Shown in pieces: positions 17,345 to 63,836 of a DNA stretch of 64,000 nt; position 1 is the first letter of the stretch, and the number at the start of each line of letters is the position of its first letter. Both the position numbers and the translations under genes were made by a program. The notes below the pieces were generated by a model that did no database searches, was not told the origin of the DNA, and worked only from the letters and a program-made list of their open reading frames with translations. This DNA comes from Candidatus Binatia bacterium (lineage in GTDB: Bacteria > Vulcanimicrobiota > Vulcanimicrobiia > Vulcanimicrobiales > Vulcanimicrobiaceae), in assembly GCA_035541935.1 (NCBI GenBank), contig DATKMJ010000067.1, forward strand, positions 62,001 to 126,000, in the 5' to 3' direction.

Positions 17345-18525
17345 CGAGGCTGCGGCCGGCGTACGTTGCCGGAGCGGTCGCGCTCGTCGTCACGGCGCTC
17401 GTCTCGCATCTCCGCGCCTCGCCGTATAACAACTACGTTCTGCTCGCGCAGGCGTTCTTGCACGGCCGCGCGTGGATAGACTGGCCGGGCGCGTATATAG
17501 ACGCGCTGCAGCACGGCGGCCGCTACTACGTTATCGAGGCGCCGGTGCCGGCGCTCTTGCTCCTTCCATTCGTCGCGATCTTCGGAGCCGCGACGAATCA
17601 GACGATGCTGGCGATCGTCCTTGCGGGCATCGCCGTCGGCGCCGCGTGGGAGCTCGGCGAGCGCTTCGGCGTACGCCCCTCCGCCAACGCGTGGATCTGC
17701 GCCTTCCTTCTCGCCGGAACCGACCTCTTGTGGTGTGCGATGCTCGGCGACGTGTGGTTCCTGGCCCACGTGAGCGCGGTCGCGTTTACGCTGCTCGCGC
17801 TCGTCGAGTTGGCGGGGCAGCGGCGCGGCTGGCTCGTCGCGCTCTACGCCGCGTGCGCGGCGGAGTCGCGCTTCACGATGATCGCCGCGATCCCCGTCTA
17901 CTGCGTCATGCTGAGCGGAGTCCGCGGTGTCACCCGCAGCGGAGTCCGCGGTGTCATCCTGAGCGGAGTCGAAGGACGGCGCATCGCGTCGTTCGCGGCC
18001 GTGCTCGGTGCGGTCGCCGTTCTTTGGGTGCTCTACAATCGCGCGCGTTGGGGAACGTGGAACGACATCGGTTACGCGACCTGGTACCATCAGGATCAAG
18101 TCGGGATGCCGACGGGATCGCCGTTCCGCTTCTCCTATCTGCCCTATCAGCTCTGGTCGTTCTTCGTGCAGGCGCCGACGCAGCTTCCGTCGTTTCCCGG
18201 GCTGCGGCCGGAGTACTCCGGGGTCGCGCTCACGTGGACGTCGCCGGCGCTCGTCCTTGCGTTTCTCGCGCGCTCGCCGCTTCGTTGGGTCGCGGCGCTC
18301 TGGGCGGCCGCTCTGCTGACCGCCGTGCCGAACTTTCTCTACTACGTCAACGGCTTCGCGCAGTTCGGCATGCGCCATGCGCTCGACTTCGAGCCGTTTC
18401 TCGTTGCGCTGATGTTCCTCGGCGTGCGAGATCGTTTTCCGGCGTGGGGCTACGCGCTCGTGGCGTACTCGATCGCGGCTGGATTCTGGGGCTGCTGGTA
18501 CTGGCTCTCGTTCGTGCGCGTCTAA
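17341..18525 (+). CDS. Polytopic membrane protein, GT-C-like, with repeat insertion
   Basis: The TTG at 17341 overlaps the previous stop and gives 394 residues with about nine hydrophobic helices. The first periplasmic-type loop (WIDWPGAYIDALQHGGRYYV) and the following helix resemble the start of GT-C glycosyltransferases such as PMT/ArnT relatives, but I cannot place the family. Residues about 189-212 (MLSGVRGVTRSGVRGVILSG) are encoded by three units of the dispersed repeat, between two transmembrane helices, in frame. The stop overlaps the convergent neighbour by 4 nt. Confidence 0.65.
   Translation: MTRLRPAYVAGAVALVVTALVSHLRASPYNNYVLLAQAFLHGRAWIDWPGAYIDALQHGGRYYVIEAPVPALLLLPFVAIFGAATNQTMLAIVLAGIAVGAAWELGERFGVRPSANAWICAFLLAGTDLLWCAMLGDVWFLAHVSAVAFTLLALVELAGQRRGWLVALYAACAAESRFTMIAAIPVYCVMLSGVRGVTRSGVRGVILSGVEGRRIASFAAVLGAVAVLWVLYNRARWGTWNDIGYATWYHQDQVGMPTGSPFRFSYLPYQLWSFFVQAPTQLPSFPGLRPEYSGVALTWTSPALVLAFLARSPLRWVAALWAAALLTAVPNFLYYVNGFAQFGMRHALDFEPFLVALMFLGVRDRFPAWGYALVAYSIAAGFWGCWYWLSFVRV
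17906..17976 (+). repeat. Dispersed repeat inside a membrane-protein gene
   Basis: Three consecutive units share GCGGAGTCCGCGGTGTCA or CTGAGCGGAGTCGAAGGA. The last unit, GTCATCCTGAGCGGAGTCGA, is the family consensus. The host reading frame passes through without a stop and encodes the LSGVxG-type peptide repeat. Confidence 0.8.
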
Positions 18526-54434: not shown

Positions 54435-55189
54435 TTGCGGGCGCGCGCGTCGCGGGCTCGCGCGCCGCGCGCGGACGGACGCTGCTCTTCGTGCACGGCG
54501 TCGGCTCGACCGCGGCGATCTGGGACGCGCAGCTCGAGGCCTTCGCGGGCGAGCACCTCTGCGCGGCGGTCGAGTTGCGCGGCAACGGTGCGCGCAAGCC
54601 CGATCCCGATCCCGTCACGATCTCTCGCGAGGGTTTCGCGCAGGACGCGCTCGCCGTCGCCGGCGCGCTCGGAGCCGAACGATTCACGCTGGTCGGGTGC
54701 AGCCTCGGCGGCGTCGTCGCATTCGAGTTGTGGCGTACCGCGCCGGAGCGGATCGAGGCGATGCTCTTGCTCGGAACGTTCGCCCGCTATCCCGACGGCG
54801 AAAAGTACGCGCGGCAGATCGTCGAGCAGGCGCGCGAAATCGGCAACATGCGGGCGTTCGGAGAGCAACGCGCCGCGCGGCTCGGGCTGCCGCCGGACCG
54901 GCTGCACGAAACCGTCGAGCAGTTCGCCTGCAAATCGGTCGAATGTTTCGCCGCGGCGACCCAGGCGACGTGGACCGGCGATTACGCCGACGTGCTGCCT
55001 TCGATCGGCGTTCCGGCGCTCGTTGCCCACGGCGAGCACGACGCGGTTGCGCCGCGCGCCCTCTCCGAAGCGATCGCGGCGGGGATTCCGGGCGCGAGGC
55101 TCGCAGAGATCGAGGGAGCCGGTCACGTTGCGAACGCGGACAATCCGCGCGCCTTCAACGCGCTGCTGCGGGAGTTTTTGCGCTCTTAG
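54431..55189 (+). CDS. Alpha/beta-hydrolase
   Basis: This 252-residue hydrolase overlaps the polX stop by GTGA. Motifs: oxyanion HG in LLFVHGVGSTAAIWDAQLEA, nucleophile elbow VGCSLGGVVAFELW (Ser), acid in HGEHDAVAP, and His in GAGHVANADNPRAFN. The substrate is unknown. The stop overlaps the convergent fdhD stop by 4 nt. Confidence 0.9.
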   Translation: MIAGARVAGSRAARGRTLLFVHGVGSTAAIWDAQLEAFAGEHLCAAVELRGNGARKPDPDPVTISREGFAQDALAVAGALGAERFTLVGCSLGGVVAFELWRTAPERIEAMLLLGTFARYPDGEKYARQIVEQAREIGNMRAFGEQRAARLGLPPDRLHETVEQFACKSVECFAAATQATWTGDYADVLPSIGVPALVAHGEHDAVAPRALSEAIAAGIPGARLAEIEGAGHVANADNPRAFNALLREFLRS

Positions 55190-56043
55190 GAGGCCGCGCC
55201 GATGCGCTCGGGCATCGAATACAGGTTCGCGCGGTCGCCGCGCAAGAAGCCCGCGAGCGTCACGTGAAATTCCCGCGCCAGGTCCACCGCGAGACTGCTC
55301 GGCGCCGATACCGACGCGACGATCGGCACGCGTGCGACGACGGCTTTCTGTAATATCTCGTAGCTCGCGCGGCCGCTGACGACGAGCGCGCGGCGCGCGA
55401 ACGGCAGCCGCCCTTCGAGCAATCCCCAGCCGACGACCTTGTCGACGGCGTTGTGGCGGCCGACGTCCTCGCGCACCGCGACCGCCTCGCCGCGCTCGTC
55501 GAAGACCGCGGCGGCGTGAAGGCCGCCGGTGGCCGAGAAGACGCGTTGCGCCGAGCGCATCTTCTCGGGAAGCGCGTAGAGCGTTCTCGCCGCGATCCGC
55601 ACGTCGTCGGCGATCGGCTCGAGGCCGCGCTCGCGCAGCGAGTCGAGTTGGGCGCGCCCGCAGACCCCGCACGAGCTGTTCACCGTGAAGTGGCGTTCGA
55701 ATCGCTCGAGATCGAGCGATTTCGCCGATCGCACCTCGATGCTGACGACGTTATACCGTTGCTCGGGGTCCACCGAGGCGTCGAGACAGTACGTGACCTC
55801 GGCGATCTCGTCGAGCGATGCGACGATGCCCTCGCCGTAGACGAAGCCGCAGGCCAGCTCGAAGTCGTTGCCGGGCGTCCGCATCGTCACGGCGAGCCGC
55901 TGCGTTTTGCCGCCCGCCGTCAGCCGGATCTCGAGCGGCTCTTCGGCCGCGAGATCGTCGTGCTTGCGGCTGCGCTCGTCGCCGGCGAGCGCGACGACCT
56001 CGGTCTCGACGCTGCGTCCGACGCGTCCTTCGACTCCGCTCAG
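55186..56043 (-). CDS. fdhD: Formate dehydrogenase accessory sulfurtransferase FdhD; 5' end merges with repeat array
   Basis: FdhD sulfurates the Mo/W-bisMGD cofactor of formate dehydrogenases. The core is clear: TMRTPGNDFELACGFVYGEG, NSSCGVCGRAQLDSL with the CxxC sulfur-transfer cysteines, FSATGGLHAAAVFDERGEAV, REDVGRHNAVDKVVGW and VSGRASYEILQKAVVARVPI. Family-conserved residues (DDLAAEEPLEIRLTAGG) lie upstream of the first canonical start, GTG 55890. The frame stays open into the repeat array but contains no ATG, GTG or TTG; a CTG at 56043 in the repeat is the nearest candidate. The 5' end is therefore approximate. It is the last gene of the formate dehydrogenase operon. Confidence 0.88.
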   Translation of the reverse strand: MSGVEGRVGRSVETEVVALAGDERSRKHDDLAAEEPLEIRLTAGGKTQRLAVTMRTPGNDFELACGFVYGEGIVASLDEIAEVTYCLDASVDPEQRYNVVSIEVRSAKSLDLERFERHFTVNSSCGVCGRAQLDSLRERGLEPIADDVRIAARTLYALPEKMRSAQRVFSATGGLHAAAVFDERGEAVAVREDVGRHNAVDKVVGWGLLEGRLPFARRALVVSGRASYEILQKAVVARVPIVASVSAPSSLAVDLAREFHVTLAGFLRGDRANLYSMPERIGAAS

Positions 56044-56255
56044 GATGACACCAGAGGGAAGCTCAGCATGACACCAGAGGGGAGCTCAGGATGACACCAG
56101 AGGGAAGCTCAGCATGACACCAGAGGGAAACTCAGCATGACACCAGAGGGAAGCTCAGGATGACACCAGAGGGAAGCTCAGGATGACACCCGAGGGAAGC
56201 TCAGCATGACAGAGGGGAGCTCAGCATGACACCAGCGGGCTCAGGATGACACCGG
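56039..56255. repeat. 23-bp tandem array, about 10 units
   Basis: Ten imperfect units begin with CTCAGGATGACACC or CTCAGCATGACACC and end AGAGGGAAG. Seven are 23 bp and the last three are shorter or diverged. The unit is a derivative of the dispersed repeat (the flanking TTCGACTCCGCTCAGGATGA at its left edge is the consensus). The array lies between the fdhA-N stop and fdhD, and provides the fdhA-N TGA at 56241-56243. Confidence 0.92.
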
Positions 56256-57089
56256 GTCATCGGGGCGGTTTTGCACGTACGCGTAGCCGAAGCGCCCCTT
56301 GACGCAGAGGTGTCCGCTCGTAACCTCGTTCTCGATCGGCGACGTCACCTTGACGATCTCGTTCTCCTGCACGTGGAGCGTCAGCGTGCAGCCGACGCCG
56401 CAATACGAGCAGATCGTGTCGGTCACGGTCTGTTCGTCTTCCTTCCACTCGCCGCGCTCGCGCAGCTCGTGCTCCGACGAGAACATCAGCGCTCCGGTCG
56501 GGCAGACGCCGATGCAGTTGCCGCAGTAGACGCAGGCCGAGTCGGGGAGAGGAACGTCGTACTCGGTCGAGATGTGCGCGTCGAATCCGCGGCCCGCGAC
56601 GGCGATGGCGAACGTGTTCTGCGCGTCCACGCCGCAGGCTTCGACGCACTTGTAGCAGAGGATGCACTTCGCGTAGTCGCGGACGTAGAGCGCGTTGTCG
56701 ATCTTGATCGGACGAGCGACGGTCGCGGCGCCCTCGCCGTACCGCGAAGGATCGGCGCCGTACCGTTCGCCGTAGCGCTGCGCGTCGGGCGCCGTCGAGA
56801 GATCCACCGTCGATCCGAGAAACTCCAATACCATCTTTCGACTGTGGCGCACGCGCGGCGAATCGGTCTGAATCTTCATGCCGGGCTCGGCGCGCCGCGC
56901 GCACGCCGGCACGAGGACGCGTGAGCCTTCGAGCTCGACGACGCAGACGCGACAAGCGTTGACCGGCGTGAGCGATTCGAGGAAACAGAGCGTCGGCGTC
57001 TCGACGCCGGCGGCCTTGCAGGCGTCGAGGATCGTCGCGCCCTCGGGAACGCTCGCCGTCGCGCCGTCGATCGTCAGCTCGACGCTCAC
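56241..57089 (-). CDS. Formate dehydrogenase, ferredoxin and Mo-bisMGD [4Fe-4S] domain subunit (N-terminal part of alpha)
   Basis: The GTG at 57089 overlaps the NuoF stop (GTGA) and gives 282 residues. Residues 1-75 are a [2Fe-2S] ferredoxin domain (CFLESLTPVNACRVCVVELE). Two [4Fe-4S] motifs follow: CILCYKCVEACGVDAQNTF, and CVYCGNCIGVCPTGALM. Last is the [4Fe-4S] domain that opens Mo/W-bisMGD oxidoreductases: CSYCGVGCTLTLHVQENEIV ... HLCVKGRFGY, with the electron-relay Lys. The NuoG-type HxxxCxxC cluster is missing. It ends in DPVSS encoded by the repeat, where a normal alpha subunit would continue. Confidence 0.9.
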   Translation of the reverse strand: MSVELTIDGATASVPEGATILDACKAAGVETPTLCFLESLTPVNACRVCVVELEGSRVLVPACARRAEPGMKIQTDSPRVRHSRKMVLEFLGSTVDLSTAPDAQRYGERYGADPSRYGEGAATVARPIKIDNALYVRDYAKCILCYKCVEACGVDAQNTFAIAVAGRGFDAHISTEYDVPLPDSACVYCGNCIGVCPTGALMFSSEHELRERGEWKEDEQTVTDTICSYCGVGCTLTLHVQENEIVKVTSPIENEVTSGHLCVKGRFGYAYVQNRPDDPVSS

Positions 57090-58789
57090 GGCGCGCCGGC
57101 CGTTTCGAAGAGGCGCAGGTTCGTGCGCGCCGACTCGACGGCGTTCGCCGCGGTCTGTCCGAGTCCGCAGATCGATGCGTCGCGCATCGCGGCGCCGATC
57201 TCGCCGAGCAGCGATATCTCTCGCGCCCGATCGCTGCCGGCGCGCGCGAGCCTCTCCAACGCCTCGGCTTGGCGCACGGTGCCGACGCGGCACGGCACGC
57301 ACTGCCCGCACGATTCGTCGGCGAAGAAGTGCGCGATCCGTCGGACGATCGCGCTCATATCGGTCGCGTCGTCGAAGAGCATGACGACGCCCGAGCCGAG
57401 CGTTGCGCCGGCCGCACGCGCGTCCTCGAACGTCAGCGGCATCGTCAGCGCCTCCGCCGTCACGAACGAGCCGGCCGCACCGCCGAGCAGGATCGCTCGA
57501 AGCGTCCCGCTTCCCGCGACGCCTCCGGCGCTCTCGATCAGCGCGCCGAGCGTCGTGCCGTGCGGCACTTCGTAGAGCCCGGGAAGCGCGACCGCGCCGG
57601 AGAGGCAGAAGAGACGGGTGCCGGTCGAATCGGCCGTTCCGATGCGCGCGTACTCCTCGCCGCCGTCGAGCAGAATTCCCGGGATATTTGCGAGCGTCTC
57701 GACGTTGTTGATCTGCGTCGGCTTGCCGAAGAGCCCGGCCTGCACGGGAAACGGAGGCTTGCTGCGCGGCTCGCCGCGTTTGCCTTCGATCGAGTTGAAG
57801 AGCGCCGTCTCCTCGCCGCAGATGTAGGCGCCGGCGCCGCGCCGCACGTCAATCTCGAGATCGCCGAGCAACCCGGCCTCGCTCGCGCGTTCGATTGCGT
57901 TCGCGATGCGCGCCGCCGCGAGCGGGTACTCGGCGCGAATATAGATGAACGCGCGTTGGCAGCCGATCGCGTATGCCGCGATCGCCATCGCCTCGACGAT
58001 CGCGAACGGATCGCGCTCCATCAGGACGCGATCCTTAAACGTTCCCGGCTCCGATTCGTCGGCGTTGCAGACGAGGTAGTGCGGACGGGCGCCGGCTTTG
58101 GCGACGACCTCCATCTTCCGTCCGGTCGGAAACGCCGCGCCGCCGCGTCCGAGTAGGTTCGAGGCGACGATCTCCGCGACGACGCGTTCCGGGCCGATCT
58201 CGCGCGCCTTCTCGAGCGCGCGAAAGCCGTCGTTCGCGCGATACTCGTCGAGGCTCTCCGGATCGATCTTGCCGACGCGCCGCAGCAATCGCAGCGGCGA
58301 GCCGCCGGTGCGCGTCTCGACCGGCTCGTCCGAGAGCGACGCCGTTGCCGGTGCGATCGCGCGCGCGAACGGCGGATCGCCCGCGTTGGCGATCAGCACC
58401 GCGGGCGCCCGATCGCAGAGGCCGAGGCAGGGACTGGGGAGCACCGTCGTCCCCGTCGCCTCGAGCGCGTCGTGCAGTTCGGTCGATCCCGCGCGCATGC
58501 ACGCGATGTCGTCGCAGACGTGGAGCACGCGCGGCGGGCGCGGCGTCGTCGAGAAGAACGCGTAGAACGTCGCGACGCCGTAGACCTCGGCGGGCGCGAC
58601 GCCGAGCCGCTCGGCGGCGTAGTTAACCGCGCCGTCGCTGATCCATCCGACGCGGCCGGCGATCGCGTGCAGAGCGGGCAGAAGCATGTCGCGCCCGACC
58701 CGCCGTCCGTCGCGCGCGCGCAACGCCGCATCCACGGCGTCGCGTTCCGCCGGCGTCGCGACGGCCGAGGTGAAGTGCACGTCGCTCAC
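57086..58789 (-). CDS. NAD-dependent formate dehydrogenase, NuoE-NuoF fused subunit
   Basis: The GTG at 58789 overlaps the stop of the catalytic subunit and gives 567 residues. The first 150 are a NuoE-type thioredoxin-like [2Fe-2S] domain (VCDDIACMRAG and PSPCLGLCDRAP). The rest is NuoF: GRGGAAFPTGRKMEVVAKAG (FMN/NADH), NADESEPGTFKDRVLMERDP, RGAGAYICGEETALFNSIEG and DESCGQCVPCRVGTVRQAEA (N3 [4Fe-4S]). It passes electrons from the formate-oxidising subunit to NAD. A longer frame upstream is only a shadow of the catalytic gene. Confidence 0.94.
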   Translation of the reverse strand: MSDVHFTSAVATPAERDAVDAALRARDGRRVGRDMLLPALHAIAGRVGWISDGAVNYAAERLGVAPAEVYGVATFYAFFSTTPRPPRVLHVCDDIACMRAGSTELHDALEATGTTVLPSPCLGLCDRAPAVLIANAGDPPFARAIAPATASLSDEPVETRTGGSPLRLLRRVGKIDPESLDEYRANDGFRALEKAREIGPERVVAEIVASNLLGRGGAAFPTGRKMEVVAKAGARPHYLVCNADESEPGTFKDRVLMERDPFAIVEAMAIAAYAIGCQRAFIYIRAEYPLAAARIANAIERASEAGLLGDLEIDVRRGAGAYICGEETALFNSIEGKRGEPRSKPPFPVQAGLFGKPTQINNVETLANIPGILLDGGEEYARIGTADSTGTRLFCLSGAVALPGLYEVPHGTTLGALIESAGGVAGSGTLRAILLGGAAGSFVTAEALTMPLTFEDARAAGATLGSGVVMLFDDATDMSAIVRRIAHFFADESCGQCVPCRVGTVRQAEALERLARAGSDRAREISLLGEIGAAMRDASICGLGQTAANAVESARTNLRLFETAGAP

Positions 58790-60696
58790 GCGGGCGCCGC
58801 CGCCGTTTCGAGCCTCTCGATGCAGACCGCGCAGGCCTTGAACTCGGCCGTTCCGGATTGCGGATCGGTCGCGTCGATCGTCAGAAGATTGGTCGCCACG
58901 TCGTCGTTGTAATGGAACGTCGTGAAGACGAGCCCCTCGCGCAGCCCGCGATCCACGTGGACCGGAATGACGACGCTCCCCCGCCGCGACCTGACGCGGA
59001 CGCGCTCTCCCTCCGCGACGCCGTACCGCCGGGCGTCCTCGGGCGAGATGTCGAGGCGCTCGCCGCGCCGCAGCGGCGACGAGTAGCCGCCGCTCTGCAC
59101 GCCGGTGTTGAACGAATCCAAGCGCCGGCCGGTCGTCAAACGCACCGGATACTCGTCGTCGAGCGCTTCGACCGGCGGGTCGTGCTCGACCGCGGCGAAG
59201 GGCGCGCGCTCGCCGCGCAGCGGCTCCTCCCAGAGCCGCGCGTGGAGGAACTGCTCGCCGGGATGGTTCTCGTCGTAGCAGGGCCAGGGTATGCCGCTGA
59301 GGCTCTCGAGTCGTGCGTAGCTCATCCCCGCATGCCAGGGCGAGAGGGATCGGCACTCGTCCCACGCGCCCTGCGGGGTGTACTCCGGCCAGTCGTGCCC
59401 GAGCCGCCGCGCCAGGTCGCCGAGGATCGCGATGTCGTCGCGCGCCTCGCCGGGCGGTTCGAGCGCCTTGCGGCAGCGCTGCACGCGCCGCTCGCTGCTC
59501 GTAACGGTCCCTTCGGATTCGCACCACGCAGCGGTCGCCGGGAGGACGACCTCGGCGAGCTCGCCGGTCTTCGTGAGGAAGATGTCCTGGACGATGAGGT
59601 GGCGCAAGCCGCGCAAAAGCCCGATTGCGTGCTCCTGATCGGCCTCCGACTGCGCGGGATTCTCGCCGATGATGTAGAGCGTGTCGAGCTCGCCGCGTTC
59701 GGCGGCGCGAAAGATGTCGGTGAGATTCCAGCCGCGCTTGCTCGGCAACGCGACGTTCCAGGCGCGTTCGAACTTCGCGCGGCTCGCGTCGTCCTCGACG
59801 TCCTGTCCGCCGGGGAACTTGTTCGGAATCGCGCCCATGTCGCCGCCGCCCTGCACGTTGTTCTGGCCGCGCAGCGGATTGAGGCCGCTGCCGTATCGCC
59901 CGACGTGGCCGCACAGAAGCGCGAGGTTGATGAGCGCGCGCACGTTATCCACCGCGTTGTGGTGCTCGGTGATGCCGAGCGTCCAGCAGAGCTGGGCGTG
60001 CGGCGCTCGAGCGTAGGCGTGTGCCAGCTCGCGCACGAGCGCAGCCGGCACGCCGGTCACGCGCTCCGCGTAGTCGAGCGTGTAGGGCTGCACCGTCGCG
60101 CGGTACTCCTCGAAGCCCGAGGTCGCGCGTTCGATGAACGGACGGTTCTCGAGCCCCGCGGCGAGGATCTCTCGGCCGACCGCGTTGGCGAGCGCGATGT
60201 CGGAGCCGACGTCGAGCCCCAGCCAGCCGTCGGCCCACTGCGCGCTCGTCGTGCGGCGCGGATCTACGACGTAAAGCTTCGCGCCGTTGCGGATCGCGCG
60301 GAGCACGTGGTGGAAGAAGATCGGATGCGTCTCGCGCGCATTCGACCCCCACAAGACGACGGTGTCGGCCCGTTCGATCTCCTCGTAGGAGCTCGTGCCG
60401 CCGCCCGCCCCGAAGACCGCCGTCAGACCGACGACGCTAGGGGCGTGTCAAGTTCGGTTGCAACTGTCGATGTTGTTGCTGCCCATAACCGAGCGAGCGA
60501 ACTTTTGCGCGATGTAGTTCATCTCGTTGGTGGCCTTCGAGCAGCTGAACATTCCGAACGTGCGCGTCGGACCGCGGTCGCGCGCGTCGCGCAGGCCGGC
60601 CGCGGCTCGATCGAGCGCCTCGTCCCACGACGCGCGGCGGAGCTCCCCGCCGTCGCGCACGAGCGGATGCGTCAACCGAAGATAACCTTTGCTCAT
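58786..60696 (-). CDS. fdhA: Formate dehydrogenase catalytic subunit, selenocysteine-containing (in-frame TGA at 60448-60450)
   Basis: The frame is continuous except for a TGA that falls at residue 83 in SNNIDSCNRT-U-HAPSVVGLTAV. This is exactly the Sec position of E. coli FdhF (ARV-U-HGPSV) and other formate dehydrogenases. A SECIS-like hairpin follows. The rest of the protein is intact on both sides: RLTHPLVRDGGELRRASWDE before, and GGGTSSYEEIERADTVVLWG, ITEHHNAVDNVRALINLALL, NNVQGGGDMGAIPNKFPGG and EFKACAVCIERL after. The total is 636 residues from ATG 60696 (TTG 60744 is an alternative). It lacks the N-terminal [4Fe-4S] domain, which is encoded downstream. It needs SelABC and tRNA-Sec from elsewhere. 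Confidence 0.93.
60418..60450 (-). promoter_or_regulatory. Bacterial SECIS element in fdhA
   Basis: Reading the minus strand from the UGA (60450-60448): 11 nt, then stem CGTCGTC (60436-60430), loop GGTCT (60429-60425), stem GACGGCG (60424-60418). The 7-bp stem has one G-U pair. The loop GGUCU and its distance from the UGA (18 nt) equal those I recall for E. coli fdhF, the known SelB-binding hairpin. It lies inside the coding sequence. Confidence 0.9.
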
Positions 60697-63660: not shown

Positions 63661-63836
63661 CGTGTCACCGTTGTCACCCTGAGCGTCGTCGTGTCACCCT
63701 GAGCGCAGTCGAAGGGCTGAGCGTGTGTCACCCTGAGCGTAGTCGAAGGGCGAAGGGCGAAGGGCCCGTGTCACCGTGTCACCGTTGTCATCCTGAGCGG
63801 AGTCGAAGGGCGAAGGGCGAAGGGCGAAGGGCGAAA
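63661..63836. repeat. Dispersed-repeat cluster with heptamer runs
   Basis: At least four copies of GTGTCACCCTGAGCGYAGTC or GTCATCCTGAGCGGAGTCGA are separated by runs of the heptamer CGAAGGG (up to four tandem). It fills the space between arginase and the partial minus-strand gene and continues into that gene's 3' end. Confidence 0.9.

Follow-up and report, generated by a model that had tools for sequence, protein, structure and literature searches.

The window, by which we mean the whole 64,000-nucleotide stretch of DNA analysed here, carries an operon that is best explained as a whole as encoding a NAD+-linked formate dehydrogenase (FDH) with a Mo- or W-bisMGD cofactor and a selenocysteine (Sec) ligand, whose catalytic subunit was split once, so that its active site would lie across two chains. 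Judging from sequence, we assign this reading a probability of about 0.9. The activity, metal and electron acceptor of the putative enzyme are those that we infer by homology. The original prediction for this DNA had recognised a Sec-containing FDH catalytic gene; that the catalytic subunit is split, and that this form extends over many phyla, was absent from it and constitutes the less ordinary part of the finding.

Table 1. Features of the split FDH operon, with positions in the window.
Feature	Position	Strand	Description
FDH catalytic gene (cat)	58786..60696	minus	bis-MGD binding domains alone: PF00384, matched from position 1 of the domain, and PF01568
UGA codon, Sec83 (= Sec140 of E. coli FDH-H)	60448..60450	minus	TGA in 110/110 covering loci; alignment with fdhF
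bSECIS hairpin	60418..60436	minus	7-bp stem, GGUCU loop, 18 nt after the UGA; inner six pairs conserved
Fused NuoE-NuoF diaphorase subunit (NuoEF)	57086..58789	minus	2Fe-2S thioredoxin-like, FMN/NADH 51K, SLBB and 4Fe-4S domains
FdhN, 282 aa	56241..57089	minus	NuoG/HoxU-like N-terminal Fe-S protein (2Fe-2S, 4Fe-4S clusters) with a Molybdop_Fe4S4 domain at its end
Molybdop_Fe4S4 domain (PF04879) of FdhN	56268..56429	minus	ligands of the Mo-proximal [4Fe-4S] cluster, and Lys264
fdhD, FDH accessory sulfurtransferase	55186..56034	minus	frame without ATG, GTG or TTG before residue about 50

The operon has the order cat(Sec)-nuoEF-fdhN, followed by fdhD (Table 1). The GTG start of nuoEF overlaps the stop codon of cat, and that of fdhN overlaps the stop codon of nuoEF, in both cases within the sequence GTGA, which suggests translational coupling at the two junctions. 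The gene upstream of cat is ilvE-like and divergent, and no Fe4S4 sequence was found upstream of the cat start. Taken together, the operon provides, on separate chains, the components of a NAD-linked metal-dependent FDH: a bis-MGD domain with a Sec-His-Arg triad, a proximal 4Fe-4S domain, a NuoE/NuoF diaphorase, and FdhD.

In the mechanism that we propose, SelB and tRNA-Sec would decode the UGA of cat, and the resulting chain would bind two MGDs as well as the metal (Mo or W), the latter via Sec83. FdhN would dock its Fe4S4 domain on cat and give the proximal [4Fe-4S] cluster together with the lysine located between cluster and cofactor, so that the active site would be completed across two polypeptides. 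Electrons would then travel from formate to the metal, through the FdhN clusters to the flavin of NuoEF and on to NAD+, with FdhD presumably sulfurating the cofactor. Related HylCBA-FdhA complexes have been reported to bifurcate (PMC5736913), and the best PDB match by sequence is the FdhF of HDCR; it is nonetheless unlikely that the enzyme is mainly a CO2 reductase, or ferredoxin-bifurcating, instead of a simple formate:NAD+ oxidoreductase, since the three operon genes include a single flavin subunit, which is NuoEF-like as in NAD-FDH.

The junction between fdhN and fdhD shows some features of its own. At positions 56038-56253, a 23-bp unit (GTGTCATCCTGAGC...) is repeated in tandem about 10 times, and the stop codon of fdhN falls inside the first copy. 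The fdhD frame opens within a repeat unit, and its start-less stretch of about 50 residues (55890-56034) resembles the FdhD of relatives; translation may begin at CTG or ATC, or the start may be damaged. Units related to the repeat were also detected at 2481, 17903-17964 and 63671-63798 (17 matches vs 0.24 expected), and the motif is present at the fdhN/fdhD junction of two related genomes (loci L095 and L126).

Analysis of the domain content of the proteins revealed that cat, which had been predicted to be the FDH catalytic gene, does encode the catalytic chain but only its C-terminal part, the rest being located in fdhN. In cat, the match to the Pfam domain PF00384 begins at residue 7 with position 1 of the domain. 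The Molybdop_Fe4S4 domain was not detected in cat by Pfam and is found only in FdhN, near the C-terminus. In the same way, positions 53-672 of TIGR01591 match cat and positions 1-51 match FdhN; as a single-chain Fdh-alpha (TIGR01591), cat scores 637.6 against a cut-off of 666 bits, the Fe4S4 domain being on the other chain. When mapped on FdsA of Rhodobacter capsulatus, FdhN covers residues 25-305 and cat residues 308-931, so that the pieces abut without overlap, and on account of this coverage the cut is placed in the linker that immediately follows the Fe4S4 domain. The stop codon of FdhN was located 14-52 residues past the cysteine of the CxKGRFG motif in all 58 loci checked.

The lysine of the CVKG motif of FdhN (Lys264, codon 56300-56298) is the equivalent of Lys44 of E. 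coli FDH-H in the alignment of FdhN to that protein; an apparent match of Lys44 to residue 3 of cat was discarded as an N-terminal artefact of the aligner. Lys44 is required in FDH-H for activity and cluster retention (PMC12176258). An AlphaFold model of cat alone has the fold of FDHs (TMq 0.86 against FDH-H); its confidence is low in the vicinity of residues 80-85 and 277-286 and in other loops (shallow alignment), which would be compatible with a missing partner and is not proof of it. FdhN also resembles the N-termini of HoxU, NuoG and HydA, as might be expected if the split were only apparent, with cat either devoid of a proximal [4Fe-4S] domain or served by another Fe-S partner, and FdhN belonging to a different complex. 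We consider this quite improbable, given that the Molybdop_Fe4S4 domain is present in FdhN only, that the two pieces abut on FdsA (305/308), that cat and FdhN are kept in one operon across phyla, and that Lys44 is necessary in FDH-H for both functions mentioned above.

Regarding the Sec codon, translation of cat with TGA as Sec resulted in a single 636-residue frame (60696-58786, minus strand) with U83 in the motif NRT-U-HAPSV. The gene that looks broken at this TGA is one frame, as had been proposed, and gene callers would indeed cut it at this point. Alignment with E. coli fdhF, taken from its genome record, matched Sec140, His141 and Arg333 to U83, H84 and R276, placing the TGA at the Sec site of FdhF/FdhA, also as predicted; no other in-frame TGA is present in cat. 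The homologous loci covering the site, 110 in number, correspond to 86 distinct sequences from about nine phyla, some genomes being in both collections. All of them carry TGA at the Sec site, with no Cys codon, TAA or TAG among the 110, and the same holds for every site-covering match of at least 62% identity within the phylum. The protein is strongly conserved past the TGA and the partner genes are intact. The gene shows the mark of a bacterial selenoprotein, namely an in-frame UGA at a redox or metal-ligand site conserved in homologues. Close relatives with a Cys version, which together with a lack of sel genes had been named as evidence against the prediction, were not found, and selA, selB and selD are present. 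Each of the checks suggested with the prediction and carried out here spoke for it, including tRNA-Sec in congeners, Sec at the aligned site and a covarying SECIS.

From the draft state of the genome (71 contigs) and from a frame that gene callers would split, one could suppose that the TGA results from an error of sequencing, or from a nonsense mutation as the gene decays, but this is refuted by the comparative data, with an identical TGA at the identical residue in 110 loci of independent assemblies from about nine phyla, strong conservation of the protein after it, and intact partner genes. A genome-wide reassignment of UGA to Trp, Gly or Cys would equally explain read-through in cat and is just as implausible, since TGA is the terminator of cat, NuoEF and FdhN, all in one operon, and the sole in-frame TGA lies at the Sec site, with a SECIS element and with sel genes in the genome. 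Comparative sequence evidence thus indicates that the UGA of cat is read as selenocysteine, an assignment that is right and in itself ordinary.

The hairpin proposed downstream of the UGA was found with the stem, loop and distance that had been predicted (Table 1) and a folding energy of -9.2 kcal/mol. Its likeness to the E. coli fdhF element holds for the GGUCU, which begins 18 nt past the UGA in both, and fails for the stem sequence and the loop closure, which differ; the 51-nt E. coli fdhF query had matches in 5388 of 5426 E. coli genomes. The values of the hairpin (loop 5, stem 7, GG, 18 nt, -9.2 kcal/mol) are within the published bSECIS limits (loop of 3-9 nt, stem of 4-16 bp, G in the first two loop positions, UGA distance of 16-37 nt, MFE ≤ -7.5; PMC13188914). 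A generic hairpin at the cat UGA means little by itself, because 179 of the 1147 TGA triplets of the GC-rich window (15.6%) pass the same limits; GGTCT at +18 was found for only one of the 1147, the cat Sec codon. Folding of 33-81 nt around the UGA gave z-scores near zero (z ~0 in the 33-nt context), and single-sequence folding was set aside as SECIS evidence because these scores are not significant. A lower helix (GCCCC/GGGGC) in the MFE structure of the window was also set aside, as its columns vary.

The real evidence for a SECIS element is comparative and consists of the TGA in 110 loci, covariation and codon freezing. The inner six stem pairs are never broken among the 86 distinct homologous sequences. 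In an alignment of 29 rows, fused relatives and E. coli among them, three stem pairs showed two-sided changes (14 such cells vs a shuffled mean of 4.1), and every slid register scored below the true one. The linkage between the two sides of the stem runs via amino-acid changes: Val/Thr (U-A), Val/Ala (U-G) or Ala/Ala (C-G) flank Gly-Leu, and Ala/Thr (C-A) was never seen among the 86 distinct sequences. The codons of V88, G90 and L91, all in the hairpin, are the three fourfold-degenerate positions of lowest entropy in cat. At G90, GGT reaches 98%, vs 11% of Gly codons overall, and among 35 conserved Gly columns it is the top codon at G90 only (0 of the other 34). Two Rokuibacteriota loci (L117 and L131) carry GGGCU in place of GGUCU in the loop, their split Sec-FDH being otherwise intact.

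The source genome, from a soil bacterium, comprises 2.41 Mb in 71 contigs and is 98.95% complete. As had been suggested for verification, it was searched for the selenocysteine machinery, and all three protein genes were found above their curated cut-offs, selA and selB on contig C43 and selD on contig C70. The tRNA-Sec gene (selC) was not found in the draft, with none at the selA, selB and selD loci or in the window flanks by Rfam and ARAGORN; matches to RF01852 in this genome turned out to be tRNA-Ser, Leu, Arg and others. ARAGORN did identify tRNA-Sec(TCA) in two congeners with few contigs. Alignment of the congener region to the draft located the gene about 2.9 kb beyond base 1 of contig C57, with the end of C43 just past the C57 match. 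Because of this position, the gene most likely lies in the gap off the C57 end and is for that reason missing from the draft.

In the wider group, 66 of 103 genomes have tRNA-Sec at the level of the order, and 100 of 149 at that of the phylum (Ca. Eremiobacterota). Many of these genomes with tRNA-Sec have no Sec-FDH match (e.g. G005, G010, G026 and G031), and therefore other selenoproteins probably exist in the phylum; a SelW-like Rdx protein (PF10262) was not found as another selenoprotein of the order. In six Chloroflexota loci (L121, L123, L124, L134, L137 and L166), the split FDH operon has upstream of it, at a distance of a few kb and on the other strand, tRNA-Sec and, as far as the contig reaches, selA and selB, an arrangement suggesting that enzyme and decoding machinery were transferred together. 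Proximity of selC, selA and selB to the FDH operon has also been reported for other Sec-FDHs (PMC5029168).

The distribution of the split enzyme was studied by scanning genome contigs with peptide patterns chosen to avoid the Sec site. The best 80 of at least 596 matches, with about 68% identity or more, all have a stop codon at the Sec site. These best 80 belong to Eremiobacterota, Chloroflexota, Acidobacteriota, Planctomycetota, Actinomycetota, Myxococcota and Rokuibacteriota, along with single MAGs that bear the labels Spirochaetota and Bacillota; such labels may be incorrect, locus L148 being identical to an Eremiobacterota genome. The order cat-NuoEF-FdhN is the same at every one of the 80 loci whose contig reaches far enough. 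Split members at greater distance, and a rare Cys member if any exists, may fall outside the best 80 of at least 596. A search of plasmids returned no member of the split family and only FDHs of about 41% identity.

The more distant FDHs of the phylum that were examined (33-47% identity) are single chains with the Fe4S4 domain, some with Sec and some with Cys, and fused relatives have N-FeS, Fe4S4 and cat within one frame. In a maximum-likelihood tree, in which some outgroup branches are long, the split set formed one clade with 100/100 support, adjoining the fused Sec forms. Split point and gene order are conserved in the split clade, and Sec is present in every member of it seen, whereas the related fused FDHs have Sec or Cys. 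The split would have arisen once, when a fused FdsA-like subunit was cut immediately behind the Fe4S4 domain and cat came to stand first in the operon; the split operon would then have spread across phyla.

Sec-FDH is the most widespread bacterial selenoprotein (PMC13188914), and for this reason cat alone mainly adds a phylum to the Sec-FDH list and corrects an annotation truncated by gene callers. Its named relatives are titled Candidatus Eremiobacterota, and the expectation that a little-studied lineage encodes selenoproteins was confirmed; no paper joining Eremiobacterota and selenocysteine was found among open-licence papers, which is weak evidence of novelty, nor any there on a split FDH catalytic subunit. 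Judged from its predicted parts, the split Sec-FDH would work like a NAD-linked Sec-FDH, with cat below the single-chain Fdh-alpha cut-off. On balance, we favour the view that these loci represent an undescribed FDH clade, in which one ancestral fission parts the metal chain from the proximal [4Fe-4S] cluster and the essential lysine, the active site is shared by two proteins, and Sec is obligatory in every lineage though fused relatives have Sec or Cys. A natural two-piece FDH of this kind would make it possible for chemists to load or exchange either chain, that of the metal or that of the cluster, independently, and would show whether a proximal cluster and a Lys44 equivalent function when supplied in trans. 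The presence of Sec without exception in the split clade, vs the mixture of Sec and Cys in fused FDHs, opens the question of why Sec is retained to direct testing. In soil and subsurface surveys based on standard gene calls, the split FDH is probably missed or truncated in many phyla.

In comparison with known systems, cat shares with E. coli FDH-H (FdhF) the Sec/His/Arg triad, the distance of 18 nt from UGA to GGUCU, the fold (TMq 0.86) and 245 identical residues; FDH-H, in contrast, has no diaphorase and carries both Lys44 and the [4Fe-4S] domain within its catalytic chain, and the fdhF SECIS has another stem sequence and loop closure. The fused Sec-FDHs of the same phylum (L181, L182, L184 and L185) have a catalytic part 40-47% identical to cat, Sec and the same SECIS loop, but are single N-FeS/Fe4S4/cat chains outside the split clade. 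The available text of a 2016 paper (PMC4807772) describes a horizontally transferred Sec fdhA-nuoEF operon in planctomycete P1 and Plesiocystis pacifica, which very probably belongs to the same family, judging by this description; that text makes no mention of any division of the catalytic subunit and lists only two genomes with the operon. The NAD+-dependent FDH of R. capsulatus (FdsA, 6tg9) is similar in NuoE, NuoF, the NuoG-like Fe-S N-terminus, the Fe4S4 domain, the bis-MGD domain and the presumed electron path. FdsA is one 958-aa chain with Cys, whereas the window enzyme has Sec and is divided at about 305/308 of FdsA between two genes that flank a NuoE-NuoF fusion.
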